From positions 1,736,001-1,800,000 of the forward strand of contig NZ_CP059676.1 of assembly GCF_014069875.1 (NCBI RefSeq): DNA of 64,000 nt, given 5' to 3'. The translations under genes and the position numbers were made by a program. Positions 47,640 through 51,478 of this stretch are shown here, piece by piece (positions within the stretch are counted from its first letter, which is position 1; each line of letters opens with the position of its first letter). This DNA is from Flaviflexus equikiangi (lineage in GTDB: Bacteria > Actinomycetota > Actinomycetes > Actinomycetales > Actinomycetaceae). Below the pieces are notes generated by a model, which was not told the origin of the DNA, did no database searches, and saw only the letters and a program-made list of their open reading frames with translations.

Positions 47640-48386
47640 TCAGGCGGCATCGAGGATCGCTCGGCGATAGCGATCCGTTGCCTCCGCCACCTCGTTGTTG
47701 TACACCACACTCCGGTTATAGTTGCCGATCGCTGTGATCCAGTTCTCAGCGGCCCCCACATCATTGCCCACCCGGCACAGATATCTCGCTGCCGCGAGCG
47801 CAGCATCATCAATGTTCTGCGGGTCCTTCACGCCGTCGAGATTCCCGTCGGCTCCCATGTACTCCCATGTGGAGGGGATGAACTGGAGGGGGCCGACGGC
47901 CCGATCCCATTCCTTATCCCCATCGAGCACTCCCCCGTCGGTGTCGGGGACTTCTGCCGTCGAGACGCCGTCGAGTGCGATGCCGACGATGGTCGGGACC
48001 TGCTGCCCGCTGGGGTCGATGGAGCCGCCCTGGAGGGTGCCGTGGCGTGATTCCACGTACCCGATGCCGGCAAGGGTCGTCCAGTCAAGGCGGCACCCCG
48101 GGAGGTCTTCCCGGAAGGCGATCTCGGCGCCGGCGTAGGCGCGCAGGGCGCGGTGGGGAATCCCGGTCGCGGCTGAGGCCCCGTCCAGCCAGGCCTCGTC
48201 GACGATGCCGGGCAGGCCCTCCGTGGCGAAGTCGAGACCGTTATCGCCCGCAGGCACCGCCGCAACGGTGGGCGCCACGGAGACCGGTGCGGTCTGCGTG
48301 TCGGCAGCAAGCCAGGCGAAGAAGCCCGCCAGGGCGACGACCCCTCCGATCGCGATGATGACGGCCGACAGTCTCCGAGCAGCCAT
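47640..48386 (-). CDS. Membrane-anchored lytic transglycosylase-like protein
   Basis: 248 aa. N-terminal hydrophobic segment (about residues 8-30) without a lipobox, a Ala/Val/Pro-rich linker, then a lytic transglycosylase domain with catalytic Glu in GIGYVESRHGTL, and GPLQFIPSTWEYMGADGNLDG, characteristic of MltB/SLT_2 proteins. It would cleave peptidoglycan strands outside the membrane. ATG at 48386 follows AGAGGGAGATCT; upstream open frame overlaps the CstR-like gene. It starts 32 bp after that gene on the same strand and could be co-transcribed. Confidence 0.88.
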   Translation of the reverse strand: MAARRLSAVIIAIGGVVALAGFFAWLAADTQTAPVSVAPTVAAVPAGDNGLDFATEGLPGIVDEAWLDGASAATGIPHRALRAYAGAEIAFREDLPGCRLDWTTLAGIGYVESRHGTLQGGSIDPSGQQVPTIVGIALDGVSTAEVPDTDGGVLDGDKEWDRAVGPLQFIPSTWEYMGADGNLDGVKDPQNIDDAALAAARYLCRVGNDVGAAENWITAIGNYNRSVVYNNEVAEATDRYRRAILDAA

Positions 48387-48418: not shown

Positions 48419-48688
48419 CTATGCCAGTGCGAGGAAGACCTTCTCCAACTCGTCCGTTGTCATTCCGTCCCGTTTCTCGGCTCCCTCGGGATCGACGATG
48501 CAGTTCTCCATGGCGCTGGAGATCATGAGGAAGCCGGCCCTGTTGAGGGCGTGCGTGACGGCGGCGAGCTGTGTGACGACGTCGCGGCACGACTCCCCCC
48601 GCTCCGCGGCCGCGATGACACCATCGAGCTGGCCCCGTGCTCTCTTGAGGCGGTTCAAGATCTTCTTCTGCGCTTGCGCATCATTCAT
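48419..48688 (-). CDS. CsoR/RcnR-family repressor, CstR-like
   Basis: 89 aa all-helical DUF156 protein. RLKRARGQLDGV is the DNA-binding helix-1 region. Of the Cu(I) site of CsoR (Cys-x24-His-x3-Cys), Cys34 and Cys63 are kept with the right 29-residue spacing, but the His position is Ala59. Two cysteines without the His is the pattern of CstR, which senses persulfides and other reactive sulfur. The context (CoA-disulfide reductase/rhodanese fusion and DUF2892 protein upstream) supports this. It probably represses its own operon through the palindrome at 50644-50659. ATG at 48688 overlaps the preceding gene by 8 bases. Confidence 0.88.
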   Translation of the reverse strand: MNDAQAQKKILNRLKRARGQLDGVIAAAERGESCRDVVTQLAAVTHALNRAGFLMISSAMENCIVDPEGAEKRDGMTTDELEKVFLALA

Positions 48689-48923
48689 CGTCGTTCCCTT
48701 CGTGCCGCATGTGCGGCGTTTGAGCACCGGTTGTGCATGGTCCCACGTTCGTACATGTGCCAGTCCAGGCGAGCCGGCCCGCGAGCAGGGCAACGACTCC
48801 CGCGCCGATCGCGGCGACAGCATTCTCTGCCGCGATGCTCACGGCGGAGGCCGCGAGGAGGACGGCGATGATGCTCGCGAGGAGGCGTTCACCGCTCCAT
48901 GCCGCTCCCACCATTCTAGACAT
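48681..48923 (-). CDS. DUF2892 (YgaP-type transmembrane) protein
   Basis: 80 aa with two predicted transmembrane helices (about 13-30 and 32-50), preceded by GERLL and followed by TGTCTNVGPC, a cysteine-containing end like the CP-type motif of YgaP transmembrane domains. In E. coli YgaP the same module is fused to a rhodanese. ATG at 48923 lies within the last codons of the oxidoreductase gene; a second in-frame ATG at 48914 is possible. It overlaps both neighbours, so it is part of a compact three-gene operon. Likely role: membrane handling of sulfane sulfur; not proven. Confidence 0.75.
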   Translation of the reverse strand: MSRMVGAAWSGERLLASIIAVLLAASAVSIAAENAVAAIGAGVVALLAGRLAWTGTCTNVGPCTTGAQTPHMRHEGNDDE

Positions 48924-50598
48924 TCTGCATCTGAGGAAGAGCGGCGGCGGCACGCTCCCCGAGAACTGCTCGGAGGGTGAGAATGCCTCCCGAGAGCGAA
49001 GCTGAATCGAATCCTGCCTGGGTGAGGACACGGTGTGCGATTGCGGATCGTACGCCGGAGGCGCACATGACTCGTACCGGTCGCCCTGCAGCCGCCTCCG
49101 TCACCTCGTCGAGCCGCTCGCGCAGCTCGGTGTGGGGAATATGGAGGGCGTGGGGCAGCATGCCGGTCGCGACTTCTGCCGCATTGCGCACGTCGAGGAT
49201 GAGGGCAGTCTCGGAGACTGTCTCGAGATCCTCCGCGTACCAGAGGCGCAGCGTGCCATCGAGAACGTTCGTTCCCACCATTCCCGCCAGGTTCACCGCA
49301 TCCTTCGCCTGGCCGTAGGGCGGGGAGTAGGACAGGTCGAGATCGATGAGATCGCCGACGTGGGCACCATTCCGGATTGTTGTCGCGAGAACATCGATCC
49401 TCTTGTCGACTCCGTCTGCCCCGACAGCCTGAGCGCCCAGGATTCGACCATCGTTGCCGATGTGGACCGTGAGGTGGATCTGGCTGGCTCCGGGGAAGTA
49501 GCCCGCGTGCTGGGCCGGATGAAGGTGGAGGGTGTGGAATGGAATGCCTGCCGCCCCGAGTGCACGCCTGTTCACCCCCGTCATCGCGGCCGTCAGCGCG
49601 CCGACGCGGACGATCGAGGTGCCGAGAGGCTGTGGGATGGAACGGGCCGTGTCCGGTCGCATGACGTGATCGGCGACGAGGCGACCCGCACGGTTCGCGG
49701 GGCCAGCCAAGGCCACGGGACGTCGCACTCCGGTGATCGGATCGGTGCTGATCGTCGCATCGCCCACCGCGTAGACGTCTCCGAGGGAGGTGCGTCCGTG
49801 CTCGTCGATGACGATCGCGCCGCGTTCCCGCTCGATGCCGGAGGAGTCGAGGAATGCCGTATCGGGCCGGACTCCGACGGAGAGGACGATGATGTCCGCG
49901 TCGATCTCCGTCCCATCGGTCAGAATGACGGTGTCGCTGTCGGTGCCGGGCACAATGCTCGTGGCACCCGCCCCGGATCGCACTGCGATGCCGAGCCTGG
50001 TGAGTTCGTCCGTGACGAGGGATGCCTGCTCGTCGTCGAGCGGCGGGAGGACATGGGGAGCGAGTTCGACGATCGTCGTCTCCAACCCCATCATCCGCAG
50101 CGCTTCCGCGGCCTCGATGCCGATGAATCCCGCACCGAGGACGACTGCGCGCCTCATGCCGCTCTCCACTGCACTGCGGATGCCGATCGCATCGTCGACA
50201 CTGCGAAGAGTGAAGACGCGAGTCGATGCATCGAGGCCATCGATGTCGGGGCGGATCGCCGCGGCGCCCGGGGAGAGAATGAGACGGTCGTAGCTCATGG
50301 TGTGCTGCACGCCGTCGTGCTCGACCGTGATCTCGTGATCATCCGGGTTGACGCCGATGACGTTGTGTCCGGTACGGACATCGAGATTGAGCGATGCTGC
50401 GAGCGAGGCGGGGGTCTGGACGAGGAGTTTCGATCGGTCCTCGATCTCACCGCCCACATAGTAGGGCAGTCCGCAGTTCGCGAACGAGACGTAGGGTCCG
50501 CGCTCGAGGACGATGATCTCGGCCGATTCGTCCAGCCGCCGCGCCCGTGCGGCAAAACTCATACCGCCGGCCACTCCCCCAACAACAACACACCGCAT
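48916..50598 (-). CDS. CoA-disulfide reductase-like flavoprotein with C-terminal rhodanese domain
   Basis: 560 aa. N-terminal FAD motif VVVGGVAGGMSFAARARR, redox Cys42 in SFANCGLPYYVGG (Cys43 in S. aureus CoADR), NADH-binding VVLGAGFIGIEAAEAL, and FAD contact VYAVGDA. After a dimerisation domain, residues ~465-555 form a rhodanese domain with active Cys512 in MCASGVRSA. The fusion (CoADR-RHD) reduces CoA persulfides, polysulfides or sulfur in other bacteria. AAGGAG precedes the ATG by 8 bases. First gene of the operon with the DUF2892 and CstR-like genes. Confidence 0.9.
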   Translation of the reverse strand: MRCVVVGGVAGGMSFAARARRLDESAEIIVLERGPYVSFANCGLPYYVGGEIEDRSKLLVQTPASLAASLNLDVRTGHNVIGVNPDDHEITVEHDGVQHTMSYDRLILSPGAAAIRPDIDGLDASTRVFTLRSVDDAIGIRSAVESGMRRAVVLGAGFIGIEAAEALRMMGLETTIVELAPHVLPPLDDEQASLVTDELTRLGIAVRSGAGATSIVPGTDSDTVILTDGTEIDADIIVLSVGVRPDTAFLDSSGIERERGAIVIDEHGRTSLGDVYAVGDATISTDPITGVRRPVALAGPANRAGRLVADHVMRPDTARSIPQPLGTSIVRVGALTAAMTGVNRRALGAAGIPFHTLHLHPAQHAGYFPGASQIHLTVHIGNDGRILGAQAVGADGVDKRIDVLATTIRNGAHVGDLIDLDLSYSPPYGQAKDAVNLAGMVGTNVLDGTLRLWYAEDLETVSETALILDVRNAAEVATGMLPHALHIPHTELRERLDEVTEAAAGRPVRVMCASGVRSAIAHRVLTQAGFDSASLSGGILTLRAVLGERAAAALPQMQNV

Positions 50599-50640
50599 TG
50601 ATACTCCTTACCACTCGTGGACGCGTTGCCCACACCGTCC

Positions 50641-50669
50641 AATATACCCCTCGGGGTATCGAGTGGCAA
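50641..50669 (-). promoter_or_regulatory. Promoter and CsoR/CstR operator of the sulfur-response operon
   Basis: Minus strand promoter TTGCCA (complement of 50664-50669), 17-bp spacer, TATATT (complement of 50641-50646). The spacer is almost filled by the perfect palindrome ATACCCCTCGGGGTAT (50644-50659), the known operator type of CsoR and CstR repressors. Repressor binding would block RNA polymerase directly. Confidence 0.88.
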
Positions 50670-50677
50670 TGTGACGT

Positions 50678-51478
50678 CTAGATCTTGCCGATCTCGGTGC
50701 GCTTCTCCGCCTGGAAGACATCCTCTTCGCGTCCGTAGGCCCAGTAGCCCGAGATAGAGAGCCTCTCACGGGGGATGTCGCGGAAGAGCCGACGCAGGTG
50801 TTTCATGGCCTCGCGCTCACCGTGCGCGAAAACAGACACGTCCCCCTCGGGAAGATCGAGCCTGCCGACGCGCTCGGCCAGAACAGTCGGGTCGTACTCC
50901 GCGCCCCCGCGGACGATCCACTCGACCGTCACGCCGGCGGGTGCACTCACATCGAGTGCGTGCTCCGCCGCCTCGAGGATCACGGCGCCCACAGCGTCAC
51001 CCGGGAGCCGCTCGAGGCTGGCCGCAATAGCGGGAATGGCGGACTCGTCGCCGACGAAGAGATGGAAGTCAGCATCGTCGGCCGGAGACCATGCGCCGCC
51101 GGGGCCCATGAACTGGATGAGGGAGCCCGGTTCGACCGTCGCGGCCCATGGTCCCGCAATCCCGGAATCCCCGTGGATGACGAAATCGATCGAGATCGTC
51201 CGCGCCTGCCGGTCGACCGATCGCACCGTATACGTGCGTGTCTTCGGCCATGTTTCGTTCGGCGTCGACGCGCGCAGCGCCGCCACATCGACCGGTTCAT
51301 CGTACGGGCGCCCCTCGTGGTCGAACACGATCTTCACGTACGAGTCGGCGAAGCCTGCATCACGGAAGGCGTCGAAGTTGGGGCCGCCGGCGGTGAGTCG
51401 AACCATGTGGGGCGTGAGCCATTGCCGATCGAGGACGGTCAGATGAGTGGTGGGGCGGGGTGGACGCTGGGGCTTCAT
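50678..51478 (-). CDS. Siderophore-interacting protein (ferric reductase, ViuB/SIP family)
   Basis: 266 aa. FAD-binding domain with RTYTVRSVD (FAD contact RxYTxR), DFVIHGDSGIAGPWA and GPGGAWSP, then an NAD(P)H-type domain with FVGDESAIPAIAASLERLP and the C-terminal SGYWAYGREEDVF. The family reduces Fe(III)-siderophores in the cytoplasm, freeing the iron. It is the last gene of the siderophore operon, 52 bp after the ATPase gene. Confidence 0.9.
   Translation of the reverse strand: MKPQRPPRPTTHLTVLDRQWLTPHMVRLTAGGPNFDAFRDAGFADSYVKIVFDHEGRPYDEPVDVAALRASTPNETWPKTRTYTVRSVDRQARTISIDFVIHGDSGIAGPWAATVEPGSLIQFMGPGGAWSPADDADFHLFVGDESAIPAIAASLERLPGDAVGAVILEAAEHALDVSAPAGVTVEWIVRGGAEYDPTVLAERVGRLDLPEGDVSVFAHGEREAMKHLRRLFRDIPRERLSISGYWAYGREEDVFQAEKRTEIGKI

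Follow-up and report, generated by a model that had tools for sequence, protein, structure and literature searches.

The window, a stretch of 64,000 nucleotides from Flaviflexus equikiangi, carries a minus-strand operon that ends in a gene for a CsoR-superfamily regulator, and it raises the question of whether this protein responds to copper or to reactive sulfur species and how far its control extends beyond its own operon. Inspection of the open reading frames of the window revealed three minus-strand genes, running from 50598 to 48419 in the order CoA-disulfide-reductase (CoADR)-rhodanese fusion, small membrane protein and regulator (Table 1). As the first-pass annotation had stated, the genes are joined by short overlaps: the ATG of the membrane-protein gene at 48923 overlaps the stop codon of the CoADR gene, and the ATG of the regulator at 48688 overlaps the stop codon of the membrane-protein gene. 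The same annotation had described the membrane protein as a YgaP-type DUF2892 protein. We had to abandon this label, which is not supported by searches of the protein and of the whole genome with PF11127 (DUF2892/YgaP): a model search of the protein gave no match at E<=10, and no locus reached the cut-off in the genome-wide search. The orthologue in the congener G005 scored 12 bits against the same model (E 0.45). The protein is kept in position in three congeners. Some 33 nt past the regulator begins a lytic-transglycosylase-like (SLT_2) gene (47640-48386), a neighbour that is conserved in congeners and that is possibly read through from the operon. Directly upstream of the operon lies a gene for a siderophore-interacting (SIP) protein (50678-51478), which three congeners also have beside the operon, and ABC-transporter genes follow further upstream.

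Table 1. Positions in the window of the operon genes and of the predicted control elements
Feature	Positions	Strand	Basis
CstR-type repressor, 89 aa, Cys34/Ala59/Cys63	48419..48688	-	PF02583 77.9 bits; residue fingerprint; tree
Small membrane protein, about 80 aa	48681..48923 (ATG 48923 or 48914)	-	Positional orthologues in three congeners
CoA-disulfide/CoA-persulfide reductase with rhodanese domain, 560 aa, Cys42, Cys512	48916..50598	-	Best match 8a56
-10-like hexamer TATATT	50641..50646	-	Overlaps operator by 3 nt
Predicted operator ATACCCCGAGGGGTAT, 7-bp arms, 2-nt centre	50644..50659	.	Equals ATACCn6GGTAT (PMC7533328)
-35-like hexamer TTGCCA	50664..50669	-	Sigma-70-like promoter

The regulator matches the CsoR/RcnR domain PF02583 far above the cut-off of 22.8 bits. 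In CsoR, copper is held by a Cys-His-Cys set of ligands. Alignment with CsoR of M. tuberculosis places Cys34, Ala59 and Cys63 of the regulator at these three positions and confirms what the first-pass annotation had read from the sequence, namely two cysteines 29 residues apart and alanine instead of the histidine; the Cu(I) site of CsoR is thus incomplete in this protein. Among 48 regulators of the window type neither cysteine varies, and Ala, Gly, Ser or Thr, but in no case His, stands at the middle position, while all of the copper-type actinobacterial paralogues (21/21) have Cys-His-Cys. The earlier remark that Ala59 is typical of CstR holds for the actinobacterial form of the protein but not for the Firmicute CstR references, which have Asn at this position. 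A phylogeny against CsoR, CstR and RcnR, proposed in the annotation as a check, separated the window-type proteins together with known CstRs from CsoR, InrS, FrmR and RcnR (support 98/93), and the regulator was not placed inside the CsoR clade, an outcome that would have spoken against the reading of the annotation. To avoid circularity the columns of residues 33, 34, 59 and 63 were taken out for a second tree; the actinobacterial CstR clade was retained (97), and its join to the Firmicute CstRs was recovered but weak (68). Besides the regulator the genome encodes just one PF02583 protein; it has the Cys-His-Cys ligands, sits after the gene for a copper P-type ATPase (CopA) and groups with CsoR of S. 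lividans. A CoADR or rhodanese gene lies within about 5 kb of the window-type regulator in 37 of 47 loci. The replaced His ligand, the grouping with known CstRs in the tree, the linkage to a CoA-persulfide reductase (CoAPR), the operator of the S. coelicolor type described below and the presence of a separate copper CsoR thus support the assignment of the regulator as CstR-type rather than as a copper CsoR, in agreement with the first-pass annotation.

The operon is preceded by a sigma-70-like promoter in which a 17-nt spacer separates the two hexamers and 10 of 12 bases agree with the consensus. The predicted operator is an exact match to ATACCn6GGTAT, the sequence bound by ScCsoR of S. coelicolor, a two-Cys sulfane-sulfur repressor whose site was mapped by EMSA (PMC7533328). 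The annotation had seen here a perfect palindrome that fills the promoter spacer. The operator is indeed located in the promoter, but it is an inverted repeat around a non-palindromic 2-nt centre (GA/TC), and besides occupying 13 nt of the spacer it runs into the -10 hexamer, the first three bases of which are the last three of the operator. Because the exact motif occurs three times in the 2.34-Mb single-contig genome, compared with no occurrence of a reversed control pattern, the presence of the operator is beyond chance; in six congeneric genomes 18 exact sites were found as against one for the reversed pattern. The fetched loci comprise 29 distinct CoADR-like genes, and for 25 of them a site of this type lies in the 420 bp upstream. 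The end of the operator enters a TAnnnT -10 element on the gene side in 16 of 28 sites and on the other side in 5 of 28 (binomial p 0.0003 against 0.25; Fisher p 0.005). Occlusion of the -10 element, as predicted from these sequences, is thus a common design of the sites before CoADR-like genes and not a peculiarity of the window.

The two remaining exact sites of the genome stand in tandem (C1:1402940/1402974) and are followed by genes for a small Cys-rich protein, a thioredoxin, an MBL-rhodanese protein, TauE, a DUF4395 protein and a rhodanese. The Cys-rich protein at the head of this operon has 61 residues (L098:8022-8207) and no Pfam or NCBIfam match. The MBL-rhodanese protein, a CstB-like dioxygenase by its sequence, aligns along almost its entire length with 3r2u (E=1.8e-84), which we take to be staphylococcal CstB. 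Sites with one mismatch precede two further genes. The first, at C1:862015, lies before an SQR-like gene, whose 71% homologue in the congener G002 is preceded by a perfect site, at a distance of 34 nt from the ATG; in G003 (C1:2281207) and G005 (C3:72263) a site is found 9 nt before a different, type-III-like SQR gene. In G005 this gene is followed by DsrC/TusE-like and DsrE-like genes, so that the motif here heads an alternative sulfide module. The second, at C1:438502-438517, precedes a minus-strand gene for a PIG-L deacetylase (C1:437914-438492). The motif stands 9 nt before the ATG in all congeners having this gene (4/4), its first base being A or G. The conserved last ~29 residues of the PIG-L protein are encoded in another frame in the window genome, which suggests a frameshift close to the 3' end of this copy, unless the sequence is in error. 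A possible link of PIG-L to mycothiol is offered by an MshC-like protein of the genome, which scores below the curated cut-off (446.7 bits compared with 485.1). A literature search retrieved no description of PIG-L control by CstR, and none of the papers it listed contained both names. Three further sites (G001 1964749 and 2363248, G004 998722) adjoin no recognised sulfur gene and were set aside as chance or unknown.

Genes for CstA, CstB and Sqr are absent from the vicinity of the window operon, as the first-pass annotation had noted. However, the unit is not self-contained, since CstB-like, TauE and SQR-like genes are present elsewhere behind the same operator. No CstA-type TusA gene was found at the operator-bearing loci, and the one TusA match of the genome lies elsewhere. 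The window CstR is the only CstR of the genome and the same operator is present at three other promoters, and for these reasons we assume regulation in trans: most likely, as judged from the sites, the regulator runs a dispersed regulon of CoADR, the dioxygenase-TauE operon, SQR and PIG-L.

The trans sites could also be read in another way, with CstR controlling only its own operon and the other sites being bound by the copper CsoR or left behind, without function, by lost regulators. CsoR and CstR sites are indeed alike, and in S. aureus CstR seems to govern just one operon (PMC5480029). Moreover, the dioxygenase operons of G003 and G005 have a second, divergent CstR paralogue of their own (G005:C42, G003:C1), which the window genome has lost or never had, so that control of the dioxygenase by the window-type CstR is not general in the genus. 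In the window genome, where the dioxygenase operon and its sites are still present, the absence of this second protein leaves the window CstR as the only candidate of its type. The spacing of the sites is also informative. Upstream of the copper ATPase operon of the window genome tandem operators of the form ATACCN7GGTAT are found (C1:193013-193061; 193013/193045), whereas the core of the trans sites has 6 nt, as in the window site, and not 7 nt as in these copA sites. We considered a general spacing code, with a 7-nt core for copper and a 6-nt core for sulfur; it holds in the window genome but is broken by one copA site with a 6-nt core in G003. Given this site and the close relation of the CsoR and CstR motifs, some cross-binding between the copper CsoR and CstR sites may occur. 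Against an effect confined to the own operon speak, in addition, the position of the sites before SQR and PIG-L, which is conserved from species to species, and the joint absence of CstR, CoADR, dioxygenase and SQR from G004. We therefore regard such a confinement as unlikely and retain the dispersed regulon as the preferred reading.

The best solved relative of the first enzyme of the operon is the CoA-persulfide reductase of E. faecalis (8a56; E=1e-144, residues 3-547, nearly full length), so that the fusion of a CoADR with a rhodanese at the head of the operon, as annotated, is confirmed by domain match and solved relative alike. The catalytic cysteines of the E. faecalis enzyme, Cys42 and Cys508 (PMC9405070), have their counterparts in Cys42 and Cys512 of the window enzyme; a CoADR domain and a C-terminal rhodanese domain are thus present with both active cysteines, as in a CoAPR. 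With 389.1 bits the protein remains below the cut-off of 578.8 of the CoA-disulfide reductase equivalog TIGR03385, and its substrate may be CoASSH or CoA disulfide. In E. faecalis, CoAPR is regulated by CstR (PMC9405070).

In another, somewhat less probable alternative the cysteine pair responds to disulfide, nitroxyl or oxidative stress instead of persulfides, and the reductase is mainly a CoA-disulfide reductase. Reduction of CoA disulfide is an activity of the enzyme family, and HNO produces a C31-C60' disulfide in CstR of S. aureus (PMC5480029). However, sulfane sulfur is favoured by the rhodanese domain with its active cysteine and by the SQR, dioxygenase and TauE genes that share the operator, and we consider this alternative rather improbable. 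That the regulator senses copper or another metal, as do CsoR, RcnR or InrS, and merely adjoins sulfur genes would fit its superfamily and the CsoR-type operator, but we rejected this very remote reading because of the missing His ligand (0 of 48 relatives), the position outside the CsoR clade and the separate Cys-His-Cys CsoR at copA with sites of its own.

We therefore propose with considerable confidence to read the 89-aa protein as CstR in its actinobacterial form, which acts as a dithiol repressor on its own operon and, most likely, on a dispersed regulon. In the resting cell reduced CstR would occupy the ATACCn6GGTAT sites over the -10 elements and block RNA polymerase. When per- or polysulfides build up, Cys34 would become persulfidated and react with, or be stabilised by, Cys63; the product could be a Cys-Sn-Cys link, known from Firmicute CstR, or a persulfide, the form reported in S. 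coelicolor. The modified CstR would leave the DNA and the operon would be derepressed, upon which the CoA-persulfide reductase-rhodanese could convert CoASSH to CoA and H2S, and more CstR would be made as feedback. In trans, derepression would reach the operon of thioredoxin, CstB-like dioxygenase-rhodanese, TauE and rhodanese, the SQR-like gene and the PIG-L deacetylase gene. SQR, dioxygenase and TauE together could then turn sulfide into exported sulfite. The genes, residues and operators, their conservation and their joint absence are read directly from the sequences; DNA binding, persulfide sensing, the enzyme activities and regulation in trans are assumed here from gene content and from analogy with characterised systems. 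In its most inclusive form the model describes a genome-wide regulon in an actinobacterial genus, with one CstR in charge of CoA-persulfide reduction, of sulfide oxidation by SQR, of persulfide oxidation with sulfite export and of a PIG-L deacetylase (MshB/BshB/Mca-like); for this form we see roughly even chances.

The switch type as such is already known, with CstR-CoAPR of E. faecalis and ScCsoR of S. coelicolor as precedents. In E. faecalis (PMC9405070; 8a56) CstR likewise represses a CoADR-rhodanese that reduces CoASSH and whose two catalytic cysteines are conserved here; the operon there includes RhdA/RhdB, whereas the window operon has the small membrane protein and the regulator as last gene. 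The S. coelicolor protein (PMC7533328) is, like the window regulator, an actinobacterial two-Cys CsoR-like repressor of sulfur genes with the same operator, and two sites precede its dioxygenase gene as they do in the window genome. Its four targets (dioxygenase, rhodanese, sulfite transporter and regulator) are clustered and no CoADR is named among them, whereas in the window genome the regulator is linked to CoADR, with the dioxygenase operon elsewhere. The CstR/CstA/CstB/TauE system of Staphylococcus (PMC5480029), of which L183 is a plasmid-borne example, shares the regulator type, and CstB-like and TauE genes stand behind the same motif here; CstR of S. aureus apparently governs one operon, in contrast to the dispersed sites of the window genome, which lack a CstA-type TusA. 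With copper CsoR (M. tuberculosis 2hh7, S. lividans 4adz) the window regulator shares the fold family and the general operator form, but neither the Cys-His-Cys site nor the clade, and the genome's own CsoR adjoins copA.

The novelty is accordingly modest and lies in the scattered putative regulon and its candidate PIG-L target. One actinobacterial lineage unites two precedents that had been described separately, the CstR-CoAPR pair of E. faecalis and the operator of ScCsoR from S. coelicolor, and it offers a short list of candidate promoters, all of them open to testing with a single purified protein. A functional site before PIG-L would tie the sensing of persulfides to low-molecular-weight thiol metabolism.
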